The notes under the pieces were generated by a model. That model did not search any database and was not told the origin of the DNA. It worked only from the letters and a program-made list of their open reading frames with translations. The position numbers were made by a program, and so were the translations under genes. DNA of 44,967 nucleotides from Prevotella sp. GTDB lineage: Bacteria > Bacteroidota > Bacteroidia > Bacteroidales > Bacteroidaceae. This document shows positions 6,950 through 44,965 of this stretch, in pieces. The stretch covers positions 1-44,967 of the forward strand of contig JAGCRH010000053.1 of assembly GCA_017964785.1 (NCBI GenBank). The letters run 5' to 3'. Position 1 is the stretch's first letter, and the number at the start of each line of letters is the position of its first letter.

Positions 6950-8316
6950 TGGGTAGCGAGCAACAATACATAGACCTGTACGAGCAGTGTCGCACGATGA
7001 TTTGTGCGCATAGCAGCGACGTCATGAATAGCGTGCGCGATGAGGCTTTCGAGCATTTCAAGGCGCAGGGTTTCCCGTCGAAAAAGGTGGAGCGCTACAA
7101 GTATACTGACATGCAGCAACTCTTTGCGCCTGACTATGGATTGAACCTCAATCGTCTCCAAATTCCCGTCGACCCCTATAACGCTTTCCGCTGCGATGTG
7201 CCCAATCTGAGTACAAGCCTTTATTTTGTGGTCAACGATATGTTTTATCATGACGATAAGCCCAAAGGCCATTTGCCTGAGGGTGTCATTGTGGGGTCGC
7301 TGTGCGATCATCCTGAACTTGTGGCTAAGTACTATTCGAAACTTGCTAAGACGAGTGAGGATGCCATCACAGCCCTCAACACCATGTTTGCACAGGATGG
7401 ACTCTATGTCTATGTGCCTCGAAATGTGAAAGTCGATCGTGCCATTCAAGTCATCAACATTTTGAAGGCACCAGGTAATCTCTCACCTCTCACCTCTCAC
7501 CCCTCACCTCTAAATATTATGGTGAACCGTCGTGTGCTCATCATCCTTGAAGAGGGTGCAGAAATCAAGATGCTCTTCTGTGACCATGCTGCTGATGATA
7601 GGAATTTCCTTGCTACACAGGTCATCGAGGCCTACGTAGGCGAGAATGCCTCACTCGACCTCTATTGCATGGAGGAGACGCACCATAAGAATGTCCGTGT
7701 GAGTAATGTCTATATCGACCAGCAGGCCAACAGTCGTGTGAACCACAATGTCATCACCCTCCATAATGGCATCACCCGCAACAAACTCGACCTTACCTTC
7801 TCTGGCGAGGGTGCCGAGTGCCAGTGTTATGGTTGTGTGATTGCAGACAAACAGCAGCATGTGGATAACAACACGCTGATCACCCATCGTGTGCCTCACT
7901 GTACCTCAAACGAACTCTACAAATATGTGCTCGACGATAAGGCTGTTGGCGCTTTTGCTGGAAAGGTCTTGGTAGAGCATGGTGCTCAGAAGACCACCTC
8001 ACAGATGACCAATCAGAACCTCACTGCCACAAAGGAGGCCCGTATGTACACCCAGCCCATGCTCGAAATCTATGCTGACGATGTGAAGTGTGCGCATGGC
8101 TCGACTGTTGGCCAACTCAACGATGCGGCCCTCTTCTATATGCGTCAACGGGGCATTTCACTCGAAGAAGCCAAACTCTTGTTGCAGAACGCCTTCATCA
8201 ACGAGGTCATCGACCACATGGCGCTCGAACCCCTCCGTGATCGCCTCCACTACCTCGTAGAGAAGCGCTTTCGTGGTGAACTCAACAAATGCTCAGGTTG
8301 CAGACTCTGTAAATAA
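6949..8316 (+). CDS. sufD: Fe-S assembly protein SufD with repeat-encoded insertion
   Basis: 455 aa from the ATG that overlaps the sufC stop; a GTG three bases earlier is a possible but less likely start. SufD pairs with SufB and SufC2 and is needed for iron entry. The conserved AHGST motif (His about 383) corresponds to the functional His360 of E. coli SufD, and the C-terminal FYMRQRGIS helix is present. Unusually, residues of the sequence NLSPLTSHPSPLN (bases 7480-7511) are encoded by a tandem heptamer repeat placed between the N-terminal helical domain and the beta-helix, just before MVNRRVLIILEEGAE. The protein remains in frame and all core motifs are kept, so it is probably functional. 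The C-terminus GCRLCK carries two extra cysteines. Confidence 0.95.
7480..7511 (+). repeat. CTCTCAC heptamer repeat inside sufD
   Basis: About four tandem copies of the heptamer CTCTCAC/CTCACCT, one with a C substitution, lie in frame and encode SPLTSHPSPL at a domain boundary of SufD. The same motif recurs at 18201-18234, 25701-25734 and 36690-36722. Confidence 0.9.
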
Positions 8317-9410: not shown

Positions 9411-10685
9411 ATGTACAATACAAATAAGGTGCGCGAGGATTTCCCGATTCTGGGACGAGAGGTATATGGCAAGCCGCTGGTCTATCTCGACAATGCAGCG
9501 ACGACGCAGAAGCCGCTGTGTGTGCTTGATGCGATGAGGGACGAGTACCTCAATGTGAATGCCAATGTGCATCGTGGGGTGCACTACCTGAGTCAGCAGG
9601 CAACAGACCTGCACGAGGCGGCTCGTGAAAAGGTGCGCGAGTTTATCAATGCCAAAAAGACGGAGGAGATTGTGTTTACACGTGGTACGACAGAGGCTAT
9701 TAATCTGGTGGCCTCGTCGTTCTGCGAGAGTCAGATGCAGGCAGGCGACGAAGTAATCGTCACGGAGATGGAGCACCACTCGAACATCGTTTCGTGGCAG
9801 TTGCAGGCGATGAAACGGGGGATAGTGGTGAAGCATATCCCCATTACGGACGATGGAAGACTCGATCTCTCACTTCTCACCTCTTTCCTCACACCTCTTA
9901 CAAAAATCATCAGCGTGGCGCATGTGAGTAATGTGCTGGGGACGATTAATCCTGTGGAGGAGATTATCCGTATCGCCCACGAGCATGGCATTCCCGTATT
10001 AGTAGACGGTGCCCAGAGTGCGCCACACTTCCAAGTAGATGTGCAGGCGATGGACTGCGACTTCTTCGCTTTCAGCGGACACAAGATGTACGGGCCAACG
10101 GGTATCGGTGTGCTCTATGGCAAAGAGGAATGGCTCGAAAAACTGCCTCCCTATCAGGGCGGAGGTGAGATGATCGACAAGGTGACGTGGGAAAAAACCA
10201 CCTTCGAGCGTCTGCCGTTTAAGTTTGAGGCTGGCACACCTGACTATATTGCGACCCACGGACTGGCTAAGGCCATCGAGTATATCCAGGCACTTGGCTT
10301 CGACGCCATCCAACAGCATGAGCAGAAACTCACCCGCTACTGTATGGAGCAGTTGCAGACCATCGAAGGGATGAAAATCTACGGGCCGAGCACACTGGGG
10401 TCAGGAACCTCTGTGCACTGCTGGAGTGCACAGAGGTTCCTGACCCCAGTGTGCTCTCGCGACGCTGTTGTTTCGTTTAACGTGGGTGATATCCACCACT
10501 TGGATATGGGAACGCTCTTGGATCGCTTAGGCATTGCTGTACGTACGGGCCACCACTGTGCCCAGCCCCTGATGGATCGTCTGGGTATCTCTGGCACCGT
10601 CCGTGCTTCGTTTGCGCTCTATAATACGAAGGAAGAAGTAGATACCCTCGTGGCAGGCATCCGAAGAGTCAGTCAGATGTTTTAG
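9411..10685 (+). CDS. sufS: Cysteine desulfurase SufS with palindromic insertion
   Basis: 424 aa from the ATG at 9411; an earlier in-frame start would overlap the -7 element. This PLP enzyme converts cysteine to alanine and passes persulfide sulfur to the SufBC2D scaffold. The PLP lysine is K225 in [10 protein letters not shown] and the catalytic cysteine is C383 in [11 protein letters not shown], the SufS-type active-site loop. Two oddities are visible. First, [12 protein letters not shown] (bases 9865-9900) looks like a decayed copy of the heptamer repeat. Second, between KIYGP and AVVSFNVGD the protein has about 20 extra residues encoded almost entirely by a perfect inverted repeat (10388-10456). 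Reading frame and catalytic residues are intact. rnhB starts 2 bases after the stop. Confidence 0.95.
10388..10456. repeat. Perfect 32-bp inverted repeat inside sufS
   Basis: Arms at 10388-10419 and 10425-10456 are exact reverse complements with a 5-base loop (GCTGG). The left arm contains GGGGTCAGGAACCTCTGTGC. The element is in frame and adds about 20 residues (core [13 protein letters not shown]) just before the strand leading to the active-site cysteine. It resembles a mobile palindromic element (REP-like) inserted into a coding region; no transposase is seen nearby. Confidence 0.95.
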
Positions 10686-10687
10686 GT

Positions 10688-11326
10688 ATGTTGTTAAATC
10701 ATTATTACGAAGGCAAGATTGAGGCAGGCTGCGACGAGGCTGGTCGAGGCTGCCTGGCAGGCAGCGTGTATGCAGCGGCTGTCATCCTGCCACCAGACTA
10801 CCAAAACGAACTCCTCAACGACTCGAAGCAACTGACAGAGAAGCGTCGTTACGAACTCCGTGAGATCATCGAGCGTGATGCTGTGGCCTGGGCAGTAGGT
10901 ATCGTGACACCTGAGGAGATTGACAAGATCAATATCCTGAATGCCTCGATACTCGCAATGCACCGAGCCTTAGACCAACTCAAAGTGCGCCCAGAGGCCA
11001 TCATCGTGGATGGCAACCGCTTCAAACCCTACTATCCACCATCACCCAACACCCATCACCCAACACCCATCATCCATACCACCATTGTGAAGGGCGACGG
11101 GAAGTATCTCTCCATTGCTGCAGCGAGCATCCTCGCCAAGACCTATCGAGATGACTATATGAATGGTCTCGCAAAAGAATATCCCCAGTACGACTGGCTG
11201 TCGAACAAGGGCTATCCCACGAAGAAGCATCGTGAGGCGATCAAACAATATGGTATTACCCCCTATCACCGCAAGAGTTACAACCTTTTAGGCGATGGTC
11301 AATTGTCTCTTGACTTCGATTTTTAG
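10688..11326 (+). CDS. rnhB: Ribonuclease HII with repeat-encoded insertion
   Basis: 212 aa. Removes RNA from RNA-DNA hybrids, including single ribonucleotides in DNA. The N-terminal [14 protein letters not shown] motif supplies the catalytic Asp-Glu pair, IIVDGNRF and [20 protein letters not shown] are typical, and the [20 protein letters not shown] region is complete. Between RFKPY and TIVKGDG about 14 residues ([14 protein letters not shown]) are encoded by two copies of a 14-base repeat. The enzyme is otherwise normal. It lies directly behind sufS and probably shares its transcript. Confidence 0.96.
11036..11082 (+). repeat. CCATCACCCAACAC repeat inside rnhB
   Basis: Two exact copies of a 14-base unit plus partial copies, C-rich on this strand and so G-rich and C-free on the other. 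In frame within rnhB; belongs to the same style of dispersed C-poor repeats seen elsewhere in the window. Confidence 0.88.
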
Positions 11327-11384: not shown

Positions 11385-12179
11385 ATGAAAAGTGATACAA
11401 TCAGACTGAGTAACCTGAGCATCGGGTATCGTGGTAAGAACGGTACACGGGTGGTGGCGGCTGGTATCAGTGCAGCCATCAGAAGCGGGGAACTGACCTG
11501 TCTGTTGGGCGCCAACGGTGTGGGTAAATCCACGCTGCTCAGAACACTTGCCGCCTTCCAGCCAAAACTCGATGGCAAGGTGCTGATTGAAGGGCAGGAG
11601 ATCACAACGTTCAATGATAAGGAACTGAGCCGGATGATCGGTGTGGTGCTGACGGAGAAGCCCGACATCAGGAATATGTCTGTACGCGAACTGGTGGCTT
11701 TGGGGCGTTCGCCCTATACGGGCTTCTGGGGAACGCTGCATGAAGATGACTGGCAGGTGGTGGACGAGGCCATCCGTGCCGTCAGGATAGAACCGTTCCG
11801 AGAGCGTATGATCCATACCCTCTCCGACGGTGAGCGGCAAAAGGTGATGATTGCAAAGGCCCTGGCGCAGCAGACACCCGTCATCTACCTCGACGAGCCA
11901 ACAGCCTTCCTCGACTTTCCCAGTAAGGTGGAGATGATGCAACTATTGCGCCAACTGGCTCAGACACAGCAGAAGACAATCTTCCTCTCCACCCACGACT
12001 TCGAACTGGCCTTGCAGGTGGCTGATATCCTCTGGCTGATGGAAAAAGACAAGAGTGGTACCCGTCTGAATATCGGAACGTCGCAGGAACTGGCGCAGAG
12101 CGGAGTACTTGCCCGCTATGTGGAGCGTCCTGGCATCAGTTTCGACCCTACCACCCTCTCTGTAAAGGTGAAAAAGTGA
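11385..12179 (+). CDS. ABC transporter ATPase, FecE/BtuD type
   Basis: 264 aa from the ATG at 11385; the longer frame beginning at 11295 overlaps rnhB and the promoter. Walker A GANGVGKSTLLRTL, signature LSDGERQKVMIAKAL, Walker B VIYLDEPTAFLD and the switch His in STHDFE are intact. The family energises FecCD-type permeases that import iron-siderophore, heme or cobalamin. Linkage to a CobD-like gene downstream and an FecCD permease beyond favours cobalamin or cobinamide uptake, as BtuD, but siderophore uptake is not excluded. Its stop codon TGA falls inside a tandem AAGTGAATAGTGAATAA-type repeat that fills the gap to the next gene. Confidence 0.85.
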   Translation: MKSDTIRLSNLSIGYRGKNGTRVVAAGISAAIRSGELTCLLGANGVGKSTLLRTLAAFQPKLDGKVLIEGQEITTFNDKELSRMIGVVLTEKPDIRNMSVRELVALGRSPYTGFWGTLHEDDWQVVDEAIRAVRIEPFRERMIHTLSDGERQKVMIAKALAQQTPVIYLDEPTAFLDFPSKVEMMQLLRQLAQTQQKTIFLSTHDFELALQVADILWLMEKDKSGTRLNIGTSQELAQSGVLARYVERPGISFDPTTLSVKVKK

Positions 12180-12206
12180 ATAGTGAATAATGAATAGTGA
12201 ATAATT
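12165..12206 (+). repeat. GTGAATAATGAATA repeat at an ATPase-cobD gene junction
   Basis: Tandem GTGAATA/ATGAATA units fill the gap and include the stop codon of the ATPase gene; the next ATG follows directly. No C occurs in the repeated part of this strand. Confidence 0.85.
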
Positions 12207-14359: not shown

Positions 14360-16717
14360 ATGACAATAAAACAATTCCATGCTGTCATGGTAGGATTACT
14401 ACTCCTGACAGCCACCCCCGCAGCAGCCACGAAAATGATTGGGCTCAAAGTGATTGATAAGGATTACCTCATGGTACATTTCCGTGACGGTGAAGTACAT
14501 TACAGGGATAACGGCACAGGAACGAGTGCCTATCTCGGTCATTCCTTTGCCGAGGGTGACGATACGTTGCTCGTATTCGGCGAACGCCTGAAAGTGGGCG
14601 AGGCCCAAAAGGCCGGTCTGTGGAAAATCAGTTCCACGGATGACAAGTCGTTCGCTGCTGCCCAGCCCCTGAATGTCTGGCGCAAGTCAAAGCCGATGAA
14701 TACTGACAACACGTTGAAGAGCGAACTCGACCACTGGCTCTTCCTCCAATTGCCACAGTCGATGAAACAGGGCCGTACCTATACCGTCACCATTCCCAAG
14801 GGTATTGGTGCCGATAAGGAGACGGTCTCTATTTGCTTCGACATCTGGAATGCACAGTCGGAGGCTGTCCATGTCAACATCATGGGCTACTCTCCTGCCG
14901 AAGCCCTTCATGCCGCAGACCTTTACCAGTGGTTGGGCGATGGTGGACAGCGCGACTATAAGGCTTGGGAGGGCAGGAAGGTTTGGCTCTATCAGGTCAA
15001 CACCAAGAAGAAGCAGAGTGTAGGAACGGTGAAATTCTGGAAGTCTGTTGCCGCTGCCGATAAAGAGGCAGGTGGAAAGAATCTGGTGGGTACGGATGTA
15101 TGGAACATCGACTTCAAGGGAGTGCAGCCCGGCTGTTACCGTCTGGTAGTAGAAGATGTGGGTTGTAGCATGGACTTTGAGATCGGTAATGAGGTCTATT
15201 ATGAACCCTATCGCTATTCCGTGAGGGGCTACTATTATATGCGTCTGGGCGAGCCCATCGACCCCAAGCATGTATGGCCCGTGCCCCGTCAGCCGCAGTT
15301 CATCCCAGAGACCGACCCCAAGGGATTCACCGTCTATAAGACCGACTTCCATCCTTGGAGTCCGGGTTGGCGCGAACTGCGCACGGACGTCTGGGACGAA
15401 CCTCACTTCAAGCCCCTCAAGGCTTCCATCTTCTGGCAGCACCGTCTGCCGGGTAATCCCGTGAACACAGAGGTGAAGGGCGGTCACTCCGACGCCTTCG
15501 ACTGGGACCGTCATCTGGCCCACGTCAGCAATATCTACGATATGCTCCTGCCATATATCCTCACGAATGGCCATCTGACGGAGGACGCCCTGGGTATCCG
15601 CGAGAGTGGCAACGGCATCCCCGACCTCATCGACGAGGCCCGCAACGAGGTGGACTTCTTCCTCTCCATCCGCGACGGCGAGGCTTATTCGCAGGGTGTC
15701 ACCAACCCCTGCGCCGACTGGAGCGTGATGTTCCAGGCAGGCTGTACCACAATGGCGGCCTGGGCCAACGCTGCCAACTGCGCCGTGCTGGGCGAGGCGT
15801 TCCGTCTGCAGAAGAATGACTCCCTGCGGCAATACTACACCGACGAGGCTATCAAGGCCTTCCGCTTCGCCAGCAAGCAGGAGAACCAGCAACTCGACGA
15901 TATGCAGGACATCGGCAGTATGCAGATGCGGGGGCGCGACTTCCGTCAGTTGGCTGCCGCCTTCCTCTATAACCTCACCGGCGACGAGCAGTGGGAGAAG
16001 ATCATGGCAGAGGAGAGTATGATCAAAGATGGTCAGTCGCTGCTCTTCAACAAGGGCCGACAGGGTTTCTTCGGTGTCGGTGTCACCAACCAGTTTGATG
16101 CCAGAGCCATCCCCTTCTGTCAACTCTGGGCCGCTGCCGCCTATATCACCTGTCCCCATCCGCGCCACTATGCCGACCTCTACCAGAACCTGAAGGCCAG
16201 CATCAATGCACAGGCAGAGGCGTATAATATCAGTCACGTCGCCGAGCGTCCTTCACGCCGTGCAGCCAACGACAGCCGTTGGCAAGTCTCGCAGAACCTG
16301 CAACTGGTGATGCTCGCCCACTACATCGCCGACAAACCGCGCAAGAAGCAGTTGGAACAGGTGATGTACACCGAGGCCGGTTGGGCCTTGGGGCGCAATC
16401 CAGGAAATATCGTGGAGATGACGGGCTTAGGTGAGCGTCATATCACCGATGTCTATACCACAGGTCGTAACGACGGCGAGCCTGGTACGCATCCTGGACA
16501 GACCCCCTTCAACGGTACGGAAACCTGGTCGCCAGGCAACGGCGGTGATGCCCGAATCCTGTTGGATCGTTGCTATCCCGCTTGGAATGATGGCGGTTGG
16601 CCCCGTCAGGAGTCGTACTTCAACCAACGGTATATGTGGGTGAATGGTGAATTCACACCCCGTGAGACCATGCGTGGCAAGATGGCTCTCTTAGGCTATC
16701 TCTATGCAATTAGATAA
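14360..16717 (+). CDS. Secreted glycoside hydrolase family 9 (cellulase-type)
   Basis: 785 aa with a signal peptide (about 1-23, ending PAAATK). An N-terminal Ig-like CelD-type domain (about 160-280) precedes an (alpha/alpha)6 catalytic domain. GGHSDAFDWDRHL corresponds to the GH9 motif with the catalytic base Asp; NGIPDLIDEARNEVDFFL and the C-terminal LGRNPGNIVEMTGLG are typical, and a Glu in the terminal WVNGEFTPRE region is in place to be the acid. Likely acts on beta-1,4-glucan or cello-oligosaccharides in the periplasm or outside; exo-glucosaminidase activity occurs in relatives. The GH3 gene follows after 32 bases, which suggests stepwise conversion of oligosaccharides to glucose. The DNA is GC-rich in the middle. 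Confidence 0.88.
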   Translation: MTIKQFHAVMVGLLLLTATPAAATKMIGLKVIDKDYLMVHFRDGEVHYRDNGTGTSAYLGHSFAEGDDTLLVFGERLKVGEAQKAGLWKISSTDDKSFAAAQPLNVWRKSKPMNTDNTLKSELDHWLFLQLPQSMKQGRTYTVTIPKGIGADKETVSICFDIWNAQSEAVHVNIMGYSPAEALHAADLYQWLGDGGQRDYKAWEGRKVWLYQVNTKKKQSVGTVKFWKSVAAADKEAGGKNLVGTDVWNIDFKGVQPGCYRLVVEDVGCSMDFEIGNEVYYEPYRYSVRGYYYMRLGEPIDPKHVWPVPRQPQFIPETDPKGFTVYKTDFHPWSPGWRELRTDVWDEPHFKPLKASIFWQHRLPGNPVNTEVKGGHSDAFDWDRHLAHVSNIYDMLLPYILTNGHLTEDALGIRESGNGIPDLIDEARNEVDFFLSIRDGEAYSQGVTNPCADWSVMFQAGCTTMAAWANAANCAVLGEAFRLQKNDSLRQYYTDEAIKAFRFASKQENQQLDDMQDIGSMQMRGRDFRQLAAAFLYNLTGDEQWEKIMAEESMIKDGQSLLFNKGRQGFFGVGVTNQFDARAIPFCQLWAAAAYITCPHPRHYADLYQNLKASINAQAEAYNISHVAERPSRRAANDSRWQVSQNLQLVMLAHYIADKPRKKQLEQVMYTEAGWALGRNPGNIVEMTGLGERHITDVYTTGRNDGEPGTHPGQTPFNGTETWSPGNGGDARILLDRCYPAWNDGGWPRQESYFNQRYMWVNGEFTPRETMRGKMALLGYLYAIR

Positions 16718-16749
16718 AGGTAAAAAAGTAAGAAAGTAAAAAATAGATT
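16718..16749 (+). repeat. GTAAAAAA-type repeat at the GH9-GH3 junction
   Basis: Irregular GTAAAAAAGTAAGAAAGTAAAA units fill the gap before the GH3 start; C-free on this strand. Confidence 0.65.
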
Positions 16750-19272
16750 ATGACAAACAATGGTTTTATGACAAAGGTAATGGGATTGGTAAAAGGTGTT
16801 TTACCTTTTTACCTTTTTACCCTTTTACCTTTAACAACTACGGCTCAGCAGCCCGCTATCCCACGTGATGCGAGGATGGAGGCAAAGATTGAAAAGACCC
16901 TCGCCCGTATGACCCTCGACGAGAAGATCGGACAGATGCTCGAACTGAACCTTGATATCATCGGAAAGATGACGGTAGAGAATGCAAAGGTGGATCGTGA
17001 GAAGGTCCGTTCCGTATTGCAGCAGTACGGCAGGTCGGCACAGGAGATTGATAACACGTTGAAGATGACAGACCAGCAGATCATCGACAGACTGGGCGGT
17101 TTTCCCGTAGACATCTATCAGGGCGATACCAAGCGTGTCTGGAAACTCAATGAGACCATGCTCGATACGCTCATCTCCAAGTGGAAGGTGGGTTCCATCC
17201 TCAACGCCCCAGGTACCCGTGCCCCCAAGGTAGACGAGTGGCAGAAATGGATCCGTGTGATCCAGGAGAAGTCGATGAAGTATCTCGGCATCCCTGATAT
17301 CTACGGTCTTGACCATAACCATGGTGTCACCTATACCCAAGGTGGTACGCTCTTCCCACAACCTATCAATATCGGTGCTTCGTTTAATATCGATTTGGCC
17401 TTCAAGGGCGCAGAGATTACTGCCTATGAGAGTCGTGCGGCCAACTGTCCCTGGGTGTATAACCCCGTCGTCGACCTCAGTCGTGACCCGCGCTGGCCCC
17501 GTGTCTGGGAAAGTTTCGGTGAGGATGCCATCGTCAACGCCAAGATGGTGGTGGCAGAGATCAAGGGTTATCAGGGTGATGATCCCAATCATATCGACCA
17601 GTATCACGTAGGTACCAGCACCAAGCACTATTTTGCCTATGGTGCTCCGTGGACAGGTAAGGATCGTACACCTGCCTACCTCTCACCGCTGATGCTCCGT
17701 GAGAAATACTTTGAGCCTTTCAAGCAGGCTGCCCTTGCAGGCACATTGACGATGATGGTCAACTCTGGTTCCATCAACGGTGTTCCCGTTCACGCCAGTT
17801 ATGAGTATCTGACAAAATGGTTGAAAGAGGATCTGCAATGGGATGGTTTCCTCGTCACCGACTGGGCCGACATCAACAATCTTTTCTCCCGTGAGAAGGT
17901 CGCAAAGGATAAGAAAGATGCCATCCGCATCGCCATCAATGCCGGAATCGATATGTCGATGGATCCATACAGCGTGGAGTTCTGTATCCTGCTGAAAGAA
18001 CTGGTGAACGAGGGTAAAGTGAAGATGTCGCGTATCGATGATGCCGTGCGCCGTATCCTCCGTGCAAAATACCGTCTGGGTCTCTTCGATCAGCCGAACA
18101 CAGGCGGTAAAGGCTTCGAGAAATTCGGCTCTGATGAGTTTGCCGCCGCCTCCCTCCAAGCCGCCGAGGAGTCTATGATCCTCTTGAAGAATGAGGGTGA
18201 TCTCTTACCTCTCACCTCTCACCTCTCACCTCTCAAAAAGATCCTACTTACAGGTCCAAACGCTAACCAGATGCGCTGTCTGCATGGCGGTTGGAGTTAC
18301 ACCTGGCAGGGTTCGAAGGCAGAAGACCTCTCCGAGAAATATAATACAATTTATGAGGCTCTCTGCAATAAGTATGGTAAGGAGAACATCATCCTCGAAC
18401 AGGGTGTGACCTATAATGAGAACGGTGCCTACTATGACGAGAATGCGCCTGAGATCGACAAGGCCGTTGCTGCCGCTACACAGGTGGATGTCATAATCGC
18501 TTGCATTGGTGAGAACTCCTATACCGAGACCCCAGGTAACCTTACCGACCTCTGGCTCTCCAACAACCAGCGCGACCTTGTGAAGGCACTCGCCAAGACG
18601 GGCAAGCCGATTATTCTGGTACTGAATGAAGGTCGTCCGCGTCTCATCGCCGACATCGAGCCGTTGGCAAAGGCGGTGGTGGATATTCTCATCCCGGGCA
18701 ACTATGGTGGTGACGCACTCGCTAACCTCCTGGCTGGTGATGCTAACTTCTCCGCGAAGATGCCTTACACCTATCCCCGTGAGATCAATTCACTGAACAC
18801 CTACGACTATAAGGTCAGCGAGGAGGTGGGTACGATGGCAGGTGCCTACAACTATGATGCGAAGGTCTCGTTGCAGTGGCCCTTCGGCTATGGTCTCAGT
18901 TACACCACCTACGAGTACAGCAACCTGAAAGTCGACAAGTCCTCATTTACAGCAGATGACATCCTCATCGTTACCGTCGATGTGAAGAATACGGGCTCTC
19001 GTGCCGGCAAGGAAGCCATCTTGCTTTATAGCAGCGACCTCGTCGCCAGCATCGTGCCAGACAACAAGCGCCTGCGCGACTTCACGAAGATTGCGTTGCA
19101 GCCTGGTGAGACGAAGACTGTCACCTTCCGTCTGCCCGCCAAGAGTCTTGCCTTTGTAGGTGCAGATGGCCGTTGGACCCTCGAAGAGGGTGACTTCATC
19201 CTGAAAGTCGGCAATCAGATCGTTCCCACCGCCTGCTCCCAGACCAAAATCTGGGACACCCCGAACATCTAA
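16750..19272 (+). CDS. Secreted GH3 beta-glucosidase
   Basis: 840 aa. The signal peptide core ([13 protein letters not shown]) is encoded by a tandem octamer repeat. Domains: GH3 N-terminal TIM barrel (about 45-400), with the nucleophile Asp in [15 protein letters not shown]3 C-terminal alpha/beta sandwich (about 460-690); and a fibronectin III-like domain at the end (about 735-825). The loop at the start of the second domain ([13 protein letters not shown]) is encoded by the heptamer repeat. Normally releases glucose from cellobiose or related beta-glucosides. It follows the GH9 gene, probably on the same transcript. The sequence has no lipobox, so it is likely periplasmic or secreted. Confidence 0.92.
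16798..16833 (+). repeat. TTTTTACC octamer repeat encoding a signal-peptide core
   Basis: About four TTTTTACC units in frame encode [10 protein letters not shown] in the GH3 beta-glucosidase signal peptide. The reverse-complement repeat GGTAAAAA does the same at 34565-34600 and 41415-41448. Confidence 0.9.
18201..18234 (+). repeat. CTCACCT heptamer repeat inside GH3
   Basis: Nearly five copies of the CTCACCT unit encode [11 protein letters not shown] at the entry to the second GH3 domain, in frame. Confidence 0.9.
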
Positions 19273-21216: not shown

Positions 21217-21250
21217 GGAGTGAAAAGAGAGAAATGAAAAGTGAAAAGTT
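21217..21250 (+). repeat. GTGAAAA-type repeat between the DUF6057-like and propeller genes
   Basis: Units of the form GTGAAAAG/ATGAAAAG run directly into the start codon of the lipoprotein gene. Confidence 0.7.
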
Positions 21251-24733: not shown

Positions 24734-27130
24734 ATGATGATAATGAGGAAAATTTATCTTTTTGCGGCACTGCTCACACAGGGGATAGGCCCTCTGTGTT
24801 CCGCAGGCTACGCACAGGAATTTCAGTCCCCGTGTGATCAGGCACCGATGGTGCTCCAATATGACCAACCCGCCACTTATTTCGAGGAGTCACTACCCAT
24901 CGGCAACGGAAAGATCGGTGCCCTTGTCTATGGGGGTACAGATGACAATATCATCTACTTGAATGATATCACTTTCTGGACGGGCAAGCCTGTGGACAGG
25001 AATCTCGACAAAGATGCCCACCAGTGGATACCTGCCATCCGCGAGGCACTTTTCAACGAGGACTATGCCCTTGCCGACTCCCTACAGTTGCATGTACAAG
25101 GTCCTAACTCGCAGTATTTTCAACCTCTCGGTACCTTGCACATCAAGGATCTCAGTTTGGGAGAAGTCAGCAACTATCACCGTTGTCTCAACCTTGACTC
25201 GGCCATCATTAAGGATAGTTATGTACGTGATGGGAAACCGGTCACAAGAGAATACTTTGCCTCAAATCCTGACAAACTCATTGCCATCCGTCTGAGCGGC
25301 AACATCAATTGCCGCATTGCCCTGACAGCGCAGGTACCCCACAAGGCAAAGGCTATTCCTACACAACTTACTATGACGGGCCATGCCTTAGGCGACTCAC
25401 AGGAGAGTATCCACTTCTGTACCATGATTAACGTGAAGACTGACGGTGAAGTATCGGCTGCAGATTCCTCATTGACCATTACCCAAGCAAAGGAAGCGAT
25501 TATCTATATTGTCAACGAGACCAGTTTCAACGGCTTCGACAAACATCCTGTGAAAGAAGGTGCTCCCTACTTGGAGAATGCTGCCAATGACCTCTGGCAC
25601 ACGCAGAACTATACCTACGACGAGTTCTATAATAGACATCTCGCAGATTATAAGACCTATTATGACCGTGTGAAAATCAGTCTTGGAGGCAGTAAAGAAA
25701 CCTCTCACCTCTTACCTCTTACTTCTCACCTCTTAAAAGATTATACTGACAAGGGTGGCCAAAGCCGCTACCTTGAAGAACTCTACTTCCAGTTCGGACG
25801 CTATCTGCTCATCTCCTCTTCAAGGACGGAAAATGTGCCTGCCAACCTACAGGGACTCTGGGCACCTCAACTTTTACCACCCTGGCGCGGCAACTATACT
25901 GTGAATATCAACCTCGAAGAAAACTACTGGCCTGCCTTTGTGGCCAATATGGCAGAGATGGCACAGCCGCTCGACGGTTTCGTGAAGGCTCTTGCCACCA
26001 ATGGCCAATATACAGCCAAGAACTATTATAACATAGGTGAAGGTTGGTGCTCCAGCCATAACTCCGACATCTGGGCCATGACGAACCCCGTGGGTGAGAA
26101 AAACGAGAAACCCGAGTGGGCTAACTGGAATTTGGGTGGTGCCTGGCTGGTACACACCCTTTGGGAACGCTATCAGTTTACCCAAGACAAAGACTATCTG
26201 AAGACTGTCGCCTATCCATTGATGAAAGGGGCTGCCGACTTCTGCCTGAATTGGCTGATAGACAGTCCTATTGTTCCTGGCGAACTAATTACCGCTCCTT
26301 CGACCTCGCCAGAAAACGAATACAAGACCGACAAGGGCTATCACGGTATGACCTGCTATGGTGGTACGGCGGACCTCGCCATCATCCGCGAACTGTTTAT
26401 CAACACCATTGCGGCAGGCAAGATCCTCGGCGAGAAAGACAAGAAGATGGAGAAGGCACTCGCCCGTCTGCACCCCTATACGGTTGGTCACATGGGTGAT
26501 ATCAACGAGTGGTATTACGACTGGGACGACTGGGATTTCCAGCACCGTCACCAGAGTCACCTCATCGGCCTCTATCCAGGTCATCACCTGACAGATGCAA
26601 CCCTACAGAAAGCAGCCGAACGCTCTTTGGAAATCAAAGGCGACAAAACCACTGGTTGGAGTACGGGCTGGCGCATCAACCTCTGGGCACGATTGCATAA
26701 GCCTGAACAGGCCTATCACATCTATCAGAAATTGCTGACGTATGTGTCACCGGATAAGTATCGTGGACCGGATCGTCGTCGTTCTGGAGGAACCTACCCC
26801 AACCTCATGGATGCCCATCCGCCCTTCCAGATTGATGGAAACTTCGGTGGTACGGCAGGAGTCTGTGAGATGCTCATGCAATCTTCAATGTTCAATGATC
26901 AATGTTCAATTGAACTATTGCCTGCTTGTCCTGAGGCTTGGAAAGACGGTGCCGTCAGCGGACTCTGTGCCCGTGGTGGCTACGAGGTTTCATTTCAGTG
27001 GAAAGACGGTAAGGTGCGTGACTGTAGCATCAAGGCCAAGAAGGCTGGCACAGTCACCTTATTATATAATGGGCAGCAGAAGACCCTTAAATTCAAGGCT
27101 GGTCAGACGCTTCCTGTAAAAACTTGGTAA
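24734..27130 (+). CDS. GH95 alpha-L-fucosidase (secreted)
   Basis: 798 aa from the first ATG after the promoter (24734; 24743 also possible). Signal peptide ends SAGYAQ. The N-terminal domain begins YDQPATYFEESLPIGNGKIG, typical of GH95. Active-site motifs are intact: NYTVNINLEENYW (two Asn that activate water), STSPENEYKT (acid Glu) and PPFQIDGNFGGTAG (Asp). Expected to release alpha-1,2-linked fucose, or L-galactose in some relatives, from host or plant glycans. Two repeat-encoded segments are present: [14 protein letters not shown] between the N-terminal and catalytic domains, and SSMFNDQCSIE near the C-terminus. Its 3' end overlaps the convergent DUF3109 gene by 38 bases. Confidence 0.92.
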   Translation: MMIMRKIYLFAALLTQGIGPLCSAGYAQEFQSPCDQAPMVLQYDQPATYFEESLPIGNGKIGALVYGGTDDNIIYLNDITFWTGKPVDRNLDKDAHQWIPAIREALFNEDYALADSLQLHVQGPNSQYFQPLGTLHIKDLSLGEVSNYHRCLNLDSAIIKDSYVRDGKPVTREYFASNPDKLIAIRLSGNINCRIALTAQVPHKAKAIPTQLTMTGHALGDSQESIHFCTMINVKTDGEVSAADSSLTITQAKEAIIYIVNETSFNGFDKHPVKEGAPYLENAANDLWHTQNYTYDEFYNRHLADYKTYYDRVKISLGGSKETSHLLPLTSHLLKDYTDKGGQSRYLEELYFQFGRYLLISSSRTENVPANLQGLWAPQLLPPWRGNYTVNINLEENYWPAFVANMAEMAQPLDGFVKALATNGQYTAKNYYNIGEGWCSSHNSDIWAMTNPVGEKNEKPEWANWNLGGAWLVHTLWERYQFTQDKDYLKTVAYPLMKGAADFCLNWLIDSPIVPGELITAPSTSPENEYKTDKGYHGMTCYGGTADLAIIRELFINTIAAGKILGEKDKKMEKALARLHPYTVGHMGDINEWYYDWDDWDFQHRHQSHLIGLYPGHHLTDATLQKAAERSLEIKGDKTTGWSTGWRINLWARLHKPEQAYHIYQKLLTYVSPDKYRGPDRRRSGGTYPNLMDAHPPFQIDGNFGGTAGVCEMLMQSSMFNDQCSIELLPACPEAWKDGAVSGLCARGGYEVSFQWKDGKVRDCSIKAKKAGTVTLLYNGQQKTLKFKAGQTLPVKTW
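25701..25734 (+). repeat. CTCACCT/CTTACCT heptamer repeat inside GH95
   Basis: About five units, with TCACCT/TTACCT/TTACTT variants, encode [11 protein letters not shown] between domains of the fucosidase, in frame. Confidence 0.88.
26882..26915 (+). repeat. TTCAATG(A/T) repeat inside GH95
   Basis: TTCAATGTTCAATGATCAATG-like units, in frame, encode SSMFNDQCSIE in a loop before the LLPACPEAW strand. The opposite strand reads ATTGAACATTGATC, C-poor. Confidence 0.85.
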
Positions 27131-33803: not shown

Positions 33804-34652
33804 TTAGTTGATCTTCGAAGTCATCGGACTGCGAACACCTGAGTAACCCTTGAGGAAAGCCTTGGCGGAGCCGAAACTGAGGAACATATCCAGACGTACG
33901 GGGATATGGTTCTGGTCGTCGGTGATATAGAACCGGATCAACTCATGGCTCTTGCCGTCCTCACGCTCATAGAACGAGAATACCAGACAACGGAACTTTT
34001 CCTTTGTACCGTTCATCTTGAAGTTCTCCTTACCACGGTATTCGAGCCAGGAGTTCGTCAGGTGACGAGCATCACTGATAGGCATGGCGATGGTCTGGTG
34101 CTTCTTCATCTTCGAGGCATCGAAGTTACGGGCACGGAGGAAGATAGACATCATATCGTAGATACAGTTCTTATAGGTGCTGGTTTTCCAGTGCTGCTCG
34201 CCATCGGCATCAATACGGTGCTTCTTCAACTGGCAGTTGCCATTAGGATAAGAGTACCAGATCTCATCCACGTAGTAACGGCTGCCTTCACGGGCTCCCT
34301 TGCGGAAATAAAGCGGTGAGAGGTCGGGGTTACAGTAACTGAGCAGCGTGTCGCGCATCATGAAATATTTATCGAGTTTACTGTTGCCTCGGGTGATAAG
34401 ATACGACTTCCAGGCATCCTTGCCCTCAAACTTCGTCATCTTGGTATCCATCGAAGCTGATCCTACCTTCACCCAGATGAACTGCCAGTTGAAGTAGAGG
34501 TCGTATTCAAGGGCCTCACCCGACTTAAATGCCGTATTGTCTATGCCACACTGGGCAGAAACAGATAAAGGTAAAAAGGTAAAAAGGTAAAAAGGTAAAA
34601 GACATCTTACCATACCTGTTACCATATCATATACTTTTTTCTTCATATCCAT
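33804..34652 (-). CDS. DUF3108 envelope protein
   Basis: 282 aa with a signal peptide whose core, [18 protein letters not shown], is encoded by the GGTAAAAA octamer repeat (complementary strand). Mature protein opens CGIDNTAFKSGEALEYDLYFNW, typical of DUF3108, a periplasmic all-beta family of unknown function. Start at 34652, or at the Met two codons later. Third gene of a minus-strand operon behind the Ig-like lipoprotein (11-base gap). Confidence 0.82.
   Translation of the reverse strand: MDMKKKVYDMVTGMVRCLLPFYLFTFLPLSVSAQCGIDNTAFKSGEALEYDLYFNWQFIWVKVGSASMDTKMTKFEGKDAWKSYLITRGNSKLDKYFMMRDTLLSYCNPDLSPLYFRKGAREGSRYYVDEIWYSYPNGNCQLKKHRIDADGEQHWKTSTYKNCIYDMMSIFLRARNFDASKMKKHQTIAMPISDARHLTNSWLEYRGKENFKMNGTKEKFRCLVFSFYEREDGKSHELIRFYITDDQNHIPVRLDMFLSFGSAKAFLKGYSGVRSPMTSKIN
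34565..34600 (-). repeat. GGTAAAAA octamer repeat encoding the DUF3108 signal-peptide core
   Basis: Four GGTAAAAA units on the plus strand; read on the minus strand they encode [11 protein letters not shown]. Nearly the same peptide is encoded at 16798-16833 and 41415-41448 in unrelated proteins. Confidence 0.9.
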
Positions 34653-34663
34653 TTTTCTACTTT

Positions 34664-36664
34664 TTACAGTCTGATTCCTTTTGTCTTGAGGTACTCGATA
34701 CCGAGTTGCTTGGCACGTTCGACATTACGGTTCTTGAGTTGCTTGGCCTTGTCGGGTTTCTGCTTGGTAATCGCCAGAGGCTTCTGCTTAAAACGGGGCG
34801 TGGAGGTCAGGTTCCAGGATTCTGTGACATCCCACTTCTCCTTGCACTCTATCTCCCTCGGATAATAATACACGGCCTCCGCCTGACGGTCGGCATCATA
34901 GTCGCCTGTATCCCATTGCCCGTTGTTGTTGGCATCAATATAGGCACAGAAATAGTATTTGCCAGGACTGACATAATTGAACTTAGCCGAATTTCCTTCA
35001 ACACGTACTTCCTTCAATACACCACCGGAACTGTTCAGCATCTGTACGACAATGGTAGAGTCGACAGCATCCACACCACTGATATTGAACAGCAACGAAC
35101 TGTACTCTTCTGTCTTTTTCACCCTGATGCCCTGTTTGTAGGGATTTGACACAAGACCGTATAAATCCACGAAAGCCGCAGAGTCAATCTCAAGACTGTA
35201 TTCCAGACCGGGCTTCCAGTCTGCAATAATTTCGTACTGCCGGATGGCATTCTCCACAGGACGGAACTCGCACTCTGCCTTATACCAGAGGGTGTCTATC
35301 TGCGAATAGAGATGGACGGCAGAGGTGTCGCAATACATTAACGGCACTGGCATCTCGATGGTCACTTTCTCATCGGGATTCAACTGCGAGGGTACATTAT
35401 ATTTCGGTTCCAACGCCTTTACGGGATAGATGGAGTCGTACTTCTCCTCCCGTTTCTTTTTCTTTTCCTGTTCCTTCTGCCATTTCTCTATTTCCTTGGC
35501 CTGCTCCTTCATGCGCTTCTCGTAGGGTACCTTTGCCAAGGCCTCAAGGGCTGAGTCGGTTTGTAACACCAGATTACCCAGCGTGTCTGTCATCCGATAG
35601 GAGATATCCATCATCAGGGTGTCTATATTGACAAGCATCGTGTCGCGCAACCAGTAGTGGATGGTGTCACGCTGCTCGTTGGTCTCAATGACAAAGGCAC
35701 TGTCGGCATTGAAGTTCAGACCTTTGATTTCCGGCAAGAGGGAGTCGCCATAAGTGAAATACATCGAGAACTTGTTCGGTTCCACACGCTCCGTCTTCAA
35801 CAGCGAACGGTCTGTCTGCGTATGGGTAAAGGCAAGCAGTGTGATATCGTCGGGCAGGAAATGGGTATAGGGCACCTGCAACAGGGCATCAATATGCAGC
35901 GAGTCGCGCCAGACGGTATCTGTACGGGTATCGGGCTTCGATGAGGGCTCGAAGATGTCGTGGCTGAAGGCAATCATCTCACTCTTCTGTGTAAAACGGA
36001 AGTCTCCGTCGTTTTCCTGTAAGGCATAGGCCCGATACGTACCAGGTGCCACACCCTTCACCACGAAATGCCCGCTGCCGTCAGTACGTGACACACGCAT
36101 CATAGGCTTGGTCTTGAAGGCGGAGTCAGTCAGGTCGGCATAGAGTCCGACAGAGATACCCTTCACGGGTTCCAGATTGCTGGCATCCAGCACATAGCCC
36201 GATACCTCGAAGGTATCAATCTGCTCACCCGTTGAGAAACTATAGGTGAAGTTACCCATCGGATTACCTTCATTGTTGTCGCTGATAGCATCACTGAAGT
36301 CAATGGTATAGGTGGTGTTCTCCTTGAGCGTGTCCTTCAGTTCTACTACAATCTTCTTACCGGCAGCCTTGATCTCTGGCATCTCCAACTGAGGGGGCGA
36401 GACGACGACCTTGTTCGTCGCATCTTCCAGTTTGATGTATTCATCGAAATAGATCGTCACTTTCTTTTGTTTCACATTCGTGGCCTGATCCGCTGGTGAT
36501 GCCCCAATGACCTGTGGCGGGTCATCATCGTACCAGCCGCCATCGGGCGATCCCATCCTGGCACAAGAAGAAAAGAGGTAAGAAGTGAGAGGCAAGAGGT
36601 AAGAGATTACCCCTGCCGCCACAAGCATCCGCATATATTCTGTATTGCCTTTCCTCTTTGACAT
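34664..36664 (-). CDS. Lipoprotein with SbsA-type Ig-like domain
   Basis: 666 aa. The signal peptide (core SYLLPLTSYLFSSC, Cys about 34) is built from the heptamer repeat. An Ig-like/SbsA (Big_5) domain follows (about 48-150: PPQVIGASPADQATNVKQKK, ending YSFSTG), then carboxypeptidase-regulatory or SdrD-B-like beta modules (YVLDASNLEPVKGISVGLYA; AYIDANNNGQWDTGDYD) and a Lys/Glu-rich coiled segment (about 390-420). A surface or periplasmic envelope role is inferred; no enzyme motif is seen. It sits between the acyl-adenylating enzyme and DUF3108 in one operon, an order I believe to be common in Bacteroidales. Confidence 0.8.
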   Translation of the reverse strand: MSKRKGNTEYMRMLVAAGVISYLLPLTSYLFSSCARMGSPDGGWYDDDPPQVIGASPADQATNVKQKKVTIYFDEYIKLEDATNKVVVSPPQLEMPEIKAAGKKIVVELKDTLKENTTYTIDFSDAISDNNEGNPMGNFTYSFSTGEQIDTFEVSGYVLDASNLEPVKGISVGLYADLTDSAFKTKPMMRVSRTDGSGHFVVKGVAPGTYRAYALQENDGDFRFTQKSEMIAFSHDIFEPSSKPDTRTDTVWRDSLHIDALLQVPYTHFLPDDITLLAFTHTQTDRSLLKTERVEPNKFSMYFTYGDSLLPEIKGLNFNADSAFVIETNEQRDTIHYWLRDTMLVNIDTLMMDISYRMTDTLGNLVLQTDSALEALAKVPYEKRMKEQAKEIEKWQKEQEKKKKREEKYDSIYPVKALEPKYNVPSQLNPDEKVTIEMPVPLMYCDTSAVHLYSQIDTLWYKAECEFRPVENAIRQYEIIADWKPGLEYSLEIDSAAFVDLYGLVSNPYKQGIRVKKTEEYSSLLFNISGVDAVDSTIVVQMLNSSGGVLKEVRVEGNSAKFNYVSPGKYYFCAYIDANNNGQWDTGDYDADRQAEAVYYYPREIECKEKWDVTESWNLTSTPRFKQKPLAITKQKPDKAKQLKNRNVERAKQLGIEYLKTKGIRL

Positions 36665-36725
36665 CTTCTCTTTTCTCGCTTATTTACATTTCTCTTACTT
36701 CTCACCTCTTACCTCTCACCTCTCA
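36568..36725 (-). repeat. Heptamer repeats flanking the start of the Ig-like lipoprotein gene
   Basis: Two tracts. 36568-36612 (AGAGGTAAGAAGTGAGAGGC style) encodes the lipoprotein signal-peptide core. 36690-36722 (CTTACTTCTCACCTCTTACC style) fills the gap upstream, and contains the stop codon of the acyl-adenylating enzyme gene (TGA at 36716-36718). Confidence 0.85.
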
Positions 36726-40276: not shown

Positions 40277-41503
40277 TTAATAAAGTTGACTATAGATCAT
40301 ATTGACTACGGCGATGATGTCAGCCACTGTCACGCTTCCGTCACCGTTGACGTCGGCTGCTTCGCGAGTGATTCTGTCTGTTTTGCCGAATATGACATCG
40401 GTGATGGCAATGATATCACTGGCTGTGATGTGTCCGTCTCCGTCAACATCGGCTTTGCGGGCCATCTCCTGTGCCTGACGGATGGCCTGAAGTGAGGCTT
40501 CGAGGTGGATATCCTCGGCACCCGCAAACTCCGTAGAGGTCTCGCCCCACCATTCGGGCTGGGGACATTTCTGGTTCAAACCCGTATAGACTCTGACGAA
40601 GTCGATGAAGTCGAGGTGGACAGGCTGGCGGTTCTCATCGACAGCCCAGGAGATATCGATACCACAGCCCTCATAATTATAAGAGGTAGCATCAGCATTG
40701 TCGGTGAAGTTGGGCAGGTTGTCGGCATAGCCATAACGGAAGCCGATGAGCACATAGTAATAGGGGCTCCAGCCCTGATCCACCTTGTCAGAGAGGTTCT
40801 GCATATTGTTGGGCAGACGGGTGCCTCGGAATGTCAGTCCGTCGGGTAACCACTGGGGATAATACTCCTGTGTATGGTAGTGGTTACGGTCGATGGTGCC
40901 ACTATTGCCACGATTGTCTATCCAGGGAATGTCTCCCATCGGGTTCTTGTGGTATGTTACCTCATAGTCATACATCACTTTTCCTACACTATCCACGTCG
41001 CAACTGCCACTGATTTCATACCAGGGGTCGTCAGGCAGACCGTTGCCATTGGCATCTTTTGACACCATCACCACACCCGCCTCATTCATGCCGCCGAAGA
41101 CGAGTTTTTTCATCTCCTGATAGGCATTGCCCCAGACGGCGAAGTCGCGCTGACCAGGAAGATTGGCGATGGAGTGGTCGAAGTGGAAAGTGATATAGCC
41201 GCCCCAGCCGCCGAGGGCAACGATATGGGCATCCGGGTCTGTAAGACTCTTGCCTGCAAGATTTTCGTTGCATTTGCGAATCATATCGGCCTCCGTGTCG
41301 CCTTCCTCGTATTCTGGTGCGTCGTTGACATACTGTCCGGGAGCCGGGCGGTATTCATCTACCGCCTGGATATATTTCGAGTGCTCCGTCACATCGTCCA
41401 TCCGCTGGGCAGATAAGGGTAAAAGGGTAAAAAGGTAAAGAGGTAAAACCGCCAATACCCTTACCATCATTTTTGTCCTGTAATTCGAAAGCACGGTAAT
41501 CAT
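40277..41503 (-). CDS. Secreted protein with dockerin-like EF-hand repeats
   Basis: 408 aa from the ATG at 41503; a start at 41470 (MMVRVLAV) would give a tighter signal peptide. The signal-peptide core [14 protein letters not shown] is repeat-encoded. The main domain (about 40-340) contains HIVALGGWGGYITFHFDHSI and SKDANGNGLPDDPWYEISGS, and is an all-beta domain I recognise only as a cell-surface protein of B12-type loci. The C-terminus has two dockerin-type calcium loops, DVDGDGHITASD and DVNGDGSVTVAD. No catalytic motif. Calcium binding is very likely; a role with BtuB/BtuG is inferred from operon position. Confidence 0.75.
   Translation of the reverse strand: MITVLSNYRTKMMVRVLAVLPLYLFTLLPLSAQRMDDVTEHSKYIQAVDEYRPAPGQYVNDAPEYEEGDTEADMIRKCNENLAGKSLTDPDAHIVALGGWGGYITFHFDHSIANLPGQRDFAVWGNAYQEMKKLVFGGMNEAGVVMVSKDANGNGLPDDPWYEISGSCDVDSVGKVMYDYEVTYHKNPMGDIPWIDNRGNSGTIDRNHYHTQEYYPQWLPDGLTFRGTRLPNNMQNLSDKVDQGWSPYYYVLIGFRYGYADNLPNFTDNADATSYNYEGCGIDISWAVDENRQPVHLDFIDFVRVYTGLNQKCPQPEWWGETSTEFAGAEDIHLEASLQAIRQAQEMARKADVDGDGHITASDIIAITDVIFGKTDRITREAADVNGDGSVTVADIIAVVNMIYSQLY
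41415..41448 (-). repeat. GGTAAAAA-type repeat encoding the EF-hand protein signal-peptide core
   Basis: GGGTAAAAGGGTAAAAAGGT-type units on the plus strand encode [11 protein letters not shown] on the minus strand. Confidence 0.9.
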
Positions 41504-41530
41504 AATTCCTAATTTCTAATTCCTAATTTA
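41500..41530 (-). repeat. AATTAGGAATTAGA repeat at the btuG 3' end
   Basis: On the minus strand AATTAGGAATTAGAAATTAG-type units contain the btuG stop codon and run into the ATG of the next gene. Confidence 0.85.
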
Positions 41531-44711: not shown

Positions 44712-44773
44712 TTCTTCACCTCTCTATTTCCTCGTTGCCGTCTAATCCCAGAGACAGGCAAACGACCAAAACA

Positions 44774-44927
44774 AATCGGCAGGTCTTCTGACTTGTCGTC
44801 TGGCAGCAAACGTCTTCCCGATAATCTCAGTGACGATGTGTTTGCGCCGAAAAAGACGACTCACAGCAGCGGGTCTGCTCGGGATTTCCACCCGATTCCC
44901 TATTAGTCACCTAAAGGTGAACCGATT
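44774..44927 (-). ncRNA. Cobalamin riboswitch controlling btuB operon
   Basis: On the minus strand the closing stem AATCGG (44922-44927) pairs with CCGATT (44774-44779). Between them are GGGAATCGGGTGGAAATCCC-like core bases, GCTGCTGTGAG and the B12 box AGTCAGAAGACCTGCC (44778-44793), the diagnostic conserved elements of adenosyl-/methylcobalamin riboswitches. Binding of B12 should repress the receptor operon. About 60 bases separate it from the btuB start; whether it acts on translation or termination cannot be told by eye. Confidence 0.93.
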
Positions 44928-44935
44928 GTCGGGTG

Positions 44936-44965
44936 CAAAGATACGAAAAAACGAGCGAAGAACAA
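44936..44965 (-). promoter_or_regulatory. Promoter of the btuB operon
   Basis: Minus strand TTG (44963-44965), 19-base spacer, TATCTTTG (44936-44943). It lies just outside the riboswitch, so the leader RNA begins with it. Confidence 0.8.

Follow-up and report, generated by a model that had tools for sequence, protein, structure and literature searches.

Introduction

Heptameric tandem repeats of Xanthomonas and Nostoc are built from G-rich 7-nt units able to form G-quadruplexes, and the Xanthomonas arrays, in the passages that deal with them, mostly hold four units, lie between aligned genes, often as close inverted pairs, and are under-represented in coding regions (Rehm et al. 2015, PMC4692102). 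The same report cites earlier work in which the excess of heptamers was proposed to reflect polymerase slippage. Here, we describe tandem arrays of 7- and 8-nt units in a 44,967-nt stretch of DNA from Prevotella sp. (contig JAGCRH010000053.1 of assembly GCA_017964785.1), hereafter the window, in which such arrays encode the hydrophobic cores of signal peptides (SPs). The arrays share with the Xanthomonas/Nostoc heptamers, as these are characterised there, the 7-nt units, the close inverted pairs and the turnover between related species. In contrast, the Prevotella arrays comprise many units that are not G-rich, of both 7 and 8 nt, and they also occupy SP cores and protein loops.

Other described systems share some features with these arrays, each according to the relevant passages of the report cited. 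In Neisseria opa, a non-triplet simple-sequence repeat likewise lies in the SP-coding region (PMC3960869); the opa pentamers vary in number and belong to a phase-varying surface protein, whereas the Prevotella arrays have a clustered length and occur in varied genes. The TAACTGA repeats of Beggiatoaceae are heptamers near starts and stops that in one orientation carry stop codons in all frames, but they have a single unit, and those passages describe no SP role for them (MacGregor 2015, PMC4679880). The P6b stem-loops of the Nostoc trnL intron are repeat-built and were class-replaced several times in different lineages, although at one intron site (PMC4476775). Borg tandem repeats are lineage-specific and enter genes, but there the coding repeats are multiples of three (PMC9879509). 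The miniature inverted-repeat transposable element (MITE) BrickBuilt of Porphyromonas contains repeat arrays within inverted-repeat elements; unlike the Prevotella arrays, it has 23-nt units and is always intergenic (PMC4596501). In a literature search covering mostly papers available without subscription, no array-encoded SPs in Prevotella were found among the matches listed.

Tandem arrays encode SP cores in the window

The window comes from a draft genome (G000) of 2.88 Mb in 147 contigs. Throughout this study, SPs were called from sequence with a crude hydropathy rule, and the gene finder was likewise crude. The original prediction held that the cores of five SPs in the window are made of 7- or 8-nt repeats, and the analysis confirmed that 7-/8-nt arrays serving as SP cores are real. 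A TTTTTACC array of 34 nt forms the SP core of the GH3 glycosidase (array 16799..16832, plus strand; gene 16750-19272), and a second TTTTTACC array of 34 nt forms that of the DUF3108 protein (34567..34600, minus strand; gene 33804-34652). A TTTTTACC-type array encodes the SP core of the dockerin/EF-hand protein (41415..41448, minus strand; gene 40277-41503), and a TTTTCAC array encodes the core LLLLFTFYFSLFT of a TonB-dependent receptor (44618..44649, minus strand; gene 42681-44711). For each of these four, none of 500 controls (499 base permutations and one Markov sequence per stretch) matched the observed periodicity. The fifth core, SYLLPLTSYLF of the Big_5 (Ig-like) lipoprotein (gene 34664-36664), is encoded by a degenerate CTCTYAC array (36573..36605, minus strand) that is only weakly periodic in the window genome, 9 of 500 controls reaching the observed value, but the array is near-perfect in several orthologs. 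The near-identical peptides reported in several of the SPs are as claimed, and Pfam assigns the five proteins to different families (GH3, DUF3108, Big_5, Dockerin_1/EF-hand and TonB plug).

Arrays are enriched and oriented at N-termini

The frequency of arrays was compared between N-terminal and internal hydrophobic segments. In the pooled data at score 11, arrays were found in 23 of 851 N-terminal segments and in 11 of 3663 internal ones (ca. 9-fold), so that the arrays passed the matched-segment comparison by which the original prediction could have failed; at score 9, the numbers of segments with arrays were 25 and 19, respectively. Other periods, used as controls, gave no N-terminal excess over internal segments. 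The sample of our own genome (327 kb) consists in part of contigs picked by hits, and these were separated for the comparison that follows, though not for the counts of periods, orientation or partners given below. In its unpicked part, arrays occurred in 4 of 191 N-terminal and 1 of 830 internal segments (Fisher p 0.005), and in relatives without the Ig gene, in 15 of 659 and 4 of 2833. Among 1340 genes, the Ig gene included, 56 had an array within the first 45 codons, while the mean after codon shuffling was 0.15. A non-triplet repeat lies inside the SP-coding region, as at opa-type loci. These values bear on the explanation that SP cores rich in Phe, Leu and Ser codons look periodic through chance or codon bias, which the Ig stretch, taken alone, would fit because of its weak periodicity. 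The codon-shuffle, permutation and internal-hydrophobic controls speak against this explanation, as do arrays outside hydrophobic segments; its probability is negligible, and it was rejected for the arrays as a class.

The orientation of the arrays is also biased. Sixty-four arrays have their centre no more than 150 nt from a called gene start. On the coding strand, 60 of them are rich in pyrimidines, and 58 contain no stop codon in any frame, which bears out the claim that the repeats can be read in every frame; if inverted, only 4 of the same arrays would be stop-free in all frames. At gene ends, the opposite orientation prevails, with pyrimidine-rich arrays in 1 of 13 cases, and such an array can provide the stop codon. 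Because 7 and 8 are not divisible by three, successive units are read in different frames until all three have been used, and a single stop-free unit therefore suffices for tolerance in coding DNA.

Arrays stand in for sequences that orthologs encode differently

For GH3, 29 fetched same-genus orthologs were compared, and for SufD likewise 29 fetched orthologs. None of the 29 GH3 orthologs (72-90% identical) has an array SP, the start of L133 being unclear, and against L110, the alignment extends over the upstream gene and the mature protein but is lost in the interval that separates them. The same GH3 protein has a further CTCTCAC array in an internal loop (18202..18235, plus strand), which is shared by L112, while L117 and L120 have shorter arrays of other units there and most other fetched orthologs have none. 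In the cytoplasmic protein SufD, a CTCTCAC array of 32 nt (7480..7511, plus strand) takes the place of a loop, and none of the 29 orthologs carries one. The arrays are thus not specific to SPs; they also occupy intergenic positions, the ends of genes and loops in enzymes, SufD among them. A process specific to SPs was rejected because arrays also lie in the SufD and GH3 loops and between genes. Inserts of another type (KSPCLGGQQELSPKQGRQEGS, SSPQGGNEGG and HPSLREGLGG) were noticed at permissive sites, namely SufD/GH3 loops (L161 and L137) and the N-terminus of the lipoprotein in L091, and their occurrence at the same permissive places suggests a second family of short dispersed repeats.

For the other genes, rows without the anchor motif were dropped, which left 20 of 25 rows for the TonB receptor, 24 of 25 for the dockerin protein and 70 of 81 for the DUF3108 protein. 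With the window included, arrays lie in or near the N-terminus in 6 of 20, 7 of 24 (five of the 24 dockerin rows have the matched domain away from the N-terminus) and 20 of 70 rows, respectively, and some of them precede the core instead of lying inside it (L234, L239, L268 and L045). Several unit types occur per gene among these orthologs, and others have no array. In a minority of the DUF3108 orthologs, the peptide remains array-like although the score used detects no array, as would be expected if the array had eroded, which is how we read these cases. In the ortholog comparison that the original prediction had set for distant genera, and which was run here within the genus, array-free orthologs mostly encode different, ordinary SPs. 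These comparisons support the view that arrays stand in for SP cores which orthologs encode by ordinary sequence.

Turnover at the lipoprotein gene and the proposed explanation

The lipoprotein was compared in 81 sequences, i.e. the window copy and 80 relatives kept of 479 matches, mostly Prevotella/Prevotellaceae records and many from rumen metagenomes, which identifies the window as Prevotella DNA, probably of rumen origin. At score 9, an SP array was found in 40 of the 81 sequences, the window copy being among the 41 without. Clear CTCTTAC arrays lie at the same SP site in L036, L042, L043 and L047-L049, and across the orthologs, SP cores are either ordinary or belong to one of at least six array types. 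Individual units of these SP arrays differ at single positions. In a tree built quickly from the 81 mature proteins, at least 34 changes of SP class were counted over eight coarse classes, a number that is approximate because the labels, set by regular expressions, contain some errors and support is weak for 23 of 77 inner branches; presence or absence of an array changed 18 times. When the labels were shuffled on this tree, the mean was 41.5 changes and the minimum in 200 shuffles 36, so that SP class follows descent only slightly.

Some pairs differ in the whole 5' cassette, the stretch between the end of the preceding gene and the cleavage site. Three pairs with both flanks at least 85% identical have swapped cassettes (L045/L068, L040/L051 and L040/L045), in which the cassettes are 49-58% and the flanks 86-94% identical. 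A class difference between L097 and L104 among the close pairs proved to be a labelling artefact. L047/L071 (flanks 81 and 93%) is a further swap, which starts in the final codons of the preceding gene and runs as far as the lipobox Cys, and L065 and L068 share a cassette at 90% identity with flanks of 79 and 77%. Part of the turnover at this gene looks like the exchange of whole cassettes between lineages.

Based on these results, it is likely that dispersed arrays of 7- or 8-nt units and ca. 32 nt in length land in SP cores and stand in for them, and that the resulting cassettes are then exchanged. Many Prevotella genomes carry such arrays, often as inverted pairs ca. 25-110 nt apart, at places where sequence may change freely, i.e. 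between genes, in loops, at gene ends and in SP cores. In the pyrimidine-rich orientation, most of the units observed are stop-free in every frame and encode residues such as Phe, Leu, Tyr, Thr, Pro and Ser; these can form a hydrophobic core, and an array landing there could replace the old core while the mature protein is conserved. The 5' cassettes, once formed, would be exchanged in part between lineages. Sequence comparison documents the array class, the clustering of its length, its orientation and its inverted pairing, as well as the substitution seen against orthologs and a small number of cassettes that are shared or swapped. The array SPs presumably work in export, and homologous recombination in the conserved flanks may well carry out the exchange. 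The original prediction had seen repeat insertion or expansion as a route to new secretion signals. Of this, the replacement of SP cores by arrays is supported, whereas an SP mechanism driven by repeat expansion, as originally put, is not, given that arrays also lie between genes and in loops, cluster in length and are in many cases halves of inverted pairs, and that at the lipoprotein gene part of the turnover resembles an exchange of cassettes.

In addition to the approximate count of class changes, several points weigh against this explanation. Thirteen of the 17 pairs with both flanks at least 85% identical keep their SP class. Under a strict rule, by which the cassette must be 12 points more identical than both flanks, none of 2926 pairs qualified, and under a looser one (8 points above the flank mean), 32 of 2926 did, 10 of them with ordinary SPs; the case for cassette transfer is thus built on a small number of aligned examples. 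Orthologous arrays recur across the samples, so the counts are not independent. No insertion or expansion within an SP was seen in progress in the sequences compared, and the SP calls themselves derive from hydropathy and sequence alone. Finally, the explanation does not account for the period of 7 or 8 or for the array length.

Inverted pairing and RNA folding

Inverted partners lie upstream of three of the five SP arrays in the window. That of the GH3 array (AAAGGTAAAAAAGTAA..., 16716..16743) lies where the preceding gene ends, ahead of the GH3 start, and is absent in L110. The lipoprotein start is preceded by a CTCTTAC/CTCTCAC array (36692..36723, plus strand) that pairs with the SP array in the fold, and the partner of the TonB receptor array (TTTCACTTTTCACT, 44699..44719) lies between a cobalamin riboswitch and the SP array. 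No inverted partner was found for the DUF3108 and dockerin SP arrays in the window. The riboswitch (44761-44941, minus strand) is directly upstream of the array hairpin and the receptor gene, which fits the label BtuB for the receptor, and the hairpin could interact with the expression platform of the riboswitch. The EF-hand protein has a type I dockerin at its end. Among 14 matches in its own genome, those listed besides the EF-hand gene itself fall on this dockerin end, and dockerins therefore look frequent in these genomes.

Pairing was also evident in the wider samples. Among 45 near array pairs, 60% scored at least 14 as inverted and 2.2% as direct, compared with 2.5% of random pairs as inverted. 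A direct partner was found for 11 of 251 arrays (2 of 251 with shuffled flanks), whereas inverted partners within 150 nt accompany 53 of 118 arrays between genes, 30 of 64 at N-termini, 6 of 56 inside coding sequence and 3 of 13 at C-termini. This distribution, with only few partners in internal coding arrays, would be expected if the hairpin came first, that is, if the inverted pair were selected as a stem at the start codon that tunes translation or mRNA stability, with the SP core incidental to the downstream arm. For 26 of the 40 lipoprotein SP arrays, an upstream reverse-complement arm scored at least 12, and for none of the 40 was there a direct arm; the other 14 of 40 have no such upstream arm, which counts against the hairpin. 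Folding was likewise divided: z was -4.9 to -5.8 for two window genes (lipoprotein and TonB receptor, both -4.9) and four relatives picked for their inverted pairs, but only -2.2 for GH3, and the array SPs of DUF3108 (-0.9) and dockerin (+0.7) have no significant hairpin. L029, the sole ortholog with an ordinary SP that was folded, has no hairpin (z +1.4). A primary role of the hairpin might also explain a spacer in which, by eye, the arms of a hairpin are arrays in some genomes and plain sequence in others, and overall, we regard such a role as a less probable account than the landing of arrays in SP cores.

The spacer in question precedes a conserved gene starting ATGGAATTAAAAAG and is presumably the acpP-fabF spacer. 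Array-armed inverted repeats lie in it in L060 (2487-2567), L069 (4106-4194), L079 (108-193), L105 (5627-5712) and L106 (5660-5777), and the spacers compared against them, with an apparent plain hairpin, were those of L064, L050 and L107. Elsewhere, a 45-bp spacer (ATGATTAC...GTTATCAT) of L071 (13125-13227) is exactly reverse-complemented in L047 (12862-12975), between identical GTTTATA arms. L048 (3203) and L049 (5580) have this spacer in the L071 orientation with few differences, and L071 has a second related copy at 16497.

Period, length and distribution of the arrays

In the 327 kb of our own genome at score 14, 18 segments of period 7 and 10 of period 8 were found, while periods 4-6 and 9-13 gave 0-2, and order-2 Markov sequences gave no period-7/8 segments. 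In 1.41 Mb around the 80 lipoprotein orthologs, there were 104 period-7 and 46 period-8 segments, and at most 6 of any other period between 4 and 13. Tandem units of 7-8 nt therefore exceed both chance and other unit sizes, as heptameric and octameric simple-sequence repeats. Outside the genus, 2 arrays were found in 286 kb (20 stretches from 20 other genomes of the order, some very short). The 16-mer TTTTTACCTTTTTACC is present in 49 of 120 same-genus genomes, our own included; elsewhere in the order, it occurs in 5 of 148 genomes, and there a backward control pattern matches more often. Within the genus, the distribution is patchy. In 16 near-complete genomes, sampled at 39-80 kb each, no array was counted in G010, G016, G024, G026 and G084, one each in G075, G076 and G102, and 3-8 in the rest, two of the counted arrays (in G003 and G076) being dinucleotide runs. 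An assembly artefact is unlikely, as arrays are present in one- or two-contig genomes (G045, G061 and G117) and in strain-named records (L053 and L061); the strain-named records L050, L055, L064 and L067 have no arrays in ca. 22 kb each.

The commonest copy number is 4.5 among 7-mers (95 segments) and 4.0 among 8-mers (45 segments), with orthologous sites counted repeatedly, and the total length is thus ca. 32 nt for both unit sizes. A second group has 2-2.5 copies, close to the limit of detection, and long arrays form a tail. At score 11, 227 arrays were counted; 167 of these measure 26-36 nt, and 16 reach at least 40 nt. Medians of 30-34 nt were obtained for arrays between genes, at N-termini and inside coding sequence, and the length of SPs thus does not by itself determine that of the arrays. 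The AAGGTCA arrays of L105 (825-1194) are exceptionally long, up to 102 nt or ca. 3 times the usual length.

The length distribution bears on phase variation in the manner of Neisseria opa, in which a change in unit number would shift the frame and switch the exported protein on or off. Units of 7 or 8 do shift the frame, and opa has CTCTT repeats in the leader-peptide region, according to the part of that report on the repeat (PMC3960869). In front of the DUF3108 gene, the length of an AGTGAAN tract in L068 (11915-11989) and in its close relative L045 differs by 35 nt, equal to five units; this is the clearest change in unit number observed. Array length is nevertheless clustered, the units of SP arrays carry point differences, and the tabulated SP arrays are in frame, though the detection method favours in-frame ones. 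Phase variation, which was looked at in consensus assemblies only, is improbable as an explanation of these arrays.

The remaining arrays of the window illustrate the range of locations. Plus-strand arrays within genes are a degenerate CTCTCAC array (9867..9898) in a class V aminotransferase gene, probably SufS as judged by its neighbours, a CATCACCCAACACC array (11039..11077) in the RNase HII gene, and a CTCTYAC array (25700..25733) and a CAATGTT array (26879..26910) in a GH95 gene. An AGTGAAT array (12175..12203) lies directly before the gene starting at 12207 and an AGTGAAA array (21219..21249) directly before that starting at 21251, and a TAATTCCTAATTTC array (41503..41528) at a two-gene border overlaps the end of the gene 41509-42684.

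Origin of the arrays

We favour strand slippage together with template switching, and subsequent selection, as the possible origin of the arrays. GATTAC or a variant of it was seen directly beside arrays of unrelated units in our own genome and in relatives, and many CTCTYAC arrays are preceded by TAAT, TATT, GGTAAT or similar. The GATTAC at array ends, together with the 45-bp spacer in opposite orientation, suggests inversion or template switching at inverted arms.

The same features could point to a MITE- or REPIN-like mobile element, in which paired arrays would be arms moved by a transposase and single SP arrays would be solo arms. Inverted arms at short distance, as in such elements, were found, together with a clustered length, 17 of 456 array ends, some of them orthologous, with GATTAC no more than 12 nt away (22 times the background rate), and the spacer in opposite orientations among related genomes. 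Such an element is unlikely, as one genome has many unrelated unit sequences instead of a single shared arm sequence, and no target-site duplication was recognised by eye in the aligned sites. In addition, only 4 of 14 stretches with genes for Y1 transposase, the sole transposase family examined, hold an array, none nearer than ca. 1.5 kb. In a comparison of 17 genomes, with array density taken from samples of 39-80 kb (larger for our own genome), Y1 transposase (PF01797) was present in 7 of 9 array-rich and 3 of 8 array-poor genomes, too few to judge.

Short fixed units of several sequences would also be produced if the arrays were written by a telomerase-like reverse transcriptase, for which DRT10 with its 9-nt repeats, as outlined in PMC12632851, is a bacterial precedent. 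In the same comparison, PF00078 matched 6 of the 9 array-rich genomes, the exceptions being G028, G046 and G055, and 7 of the 8 array-poor ones, a test that a lost or very divergent enzyme would escape. We consider this origin highly improbable.

Significance for Prevotella

SPs are degenerate in sequence, and their acquisition by genomes can seldom be observed. Since one gene in one genus has ordinary cores as well as no fewer than six array types, the origin and turnover of SPs become traceable on trees and testable with reporters. The arrays also show how a non-triplet unit can be tolerated in coding DNA, and their existence, their length of ca. 32 nt and their patchy presence in Prevotella raise the question of what makes them. 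A tentative extension is that the paired-array cassette is an exchangeable 5' module which circulates between Prevotella species by recombination and repeatedly resets the translation and export of otherwise conserved surface proteins. Such a module might, equally tentatively, be laid out as an upstream stop codon, a hairpin stem, a ribosome site and start codon in the loop, and an SP core in the second arm. If this is true, the genus would possess a pool of interchangeable secretion-and-start modules made of simple repeats.

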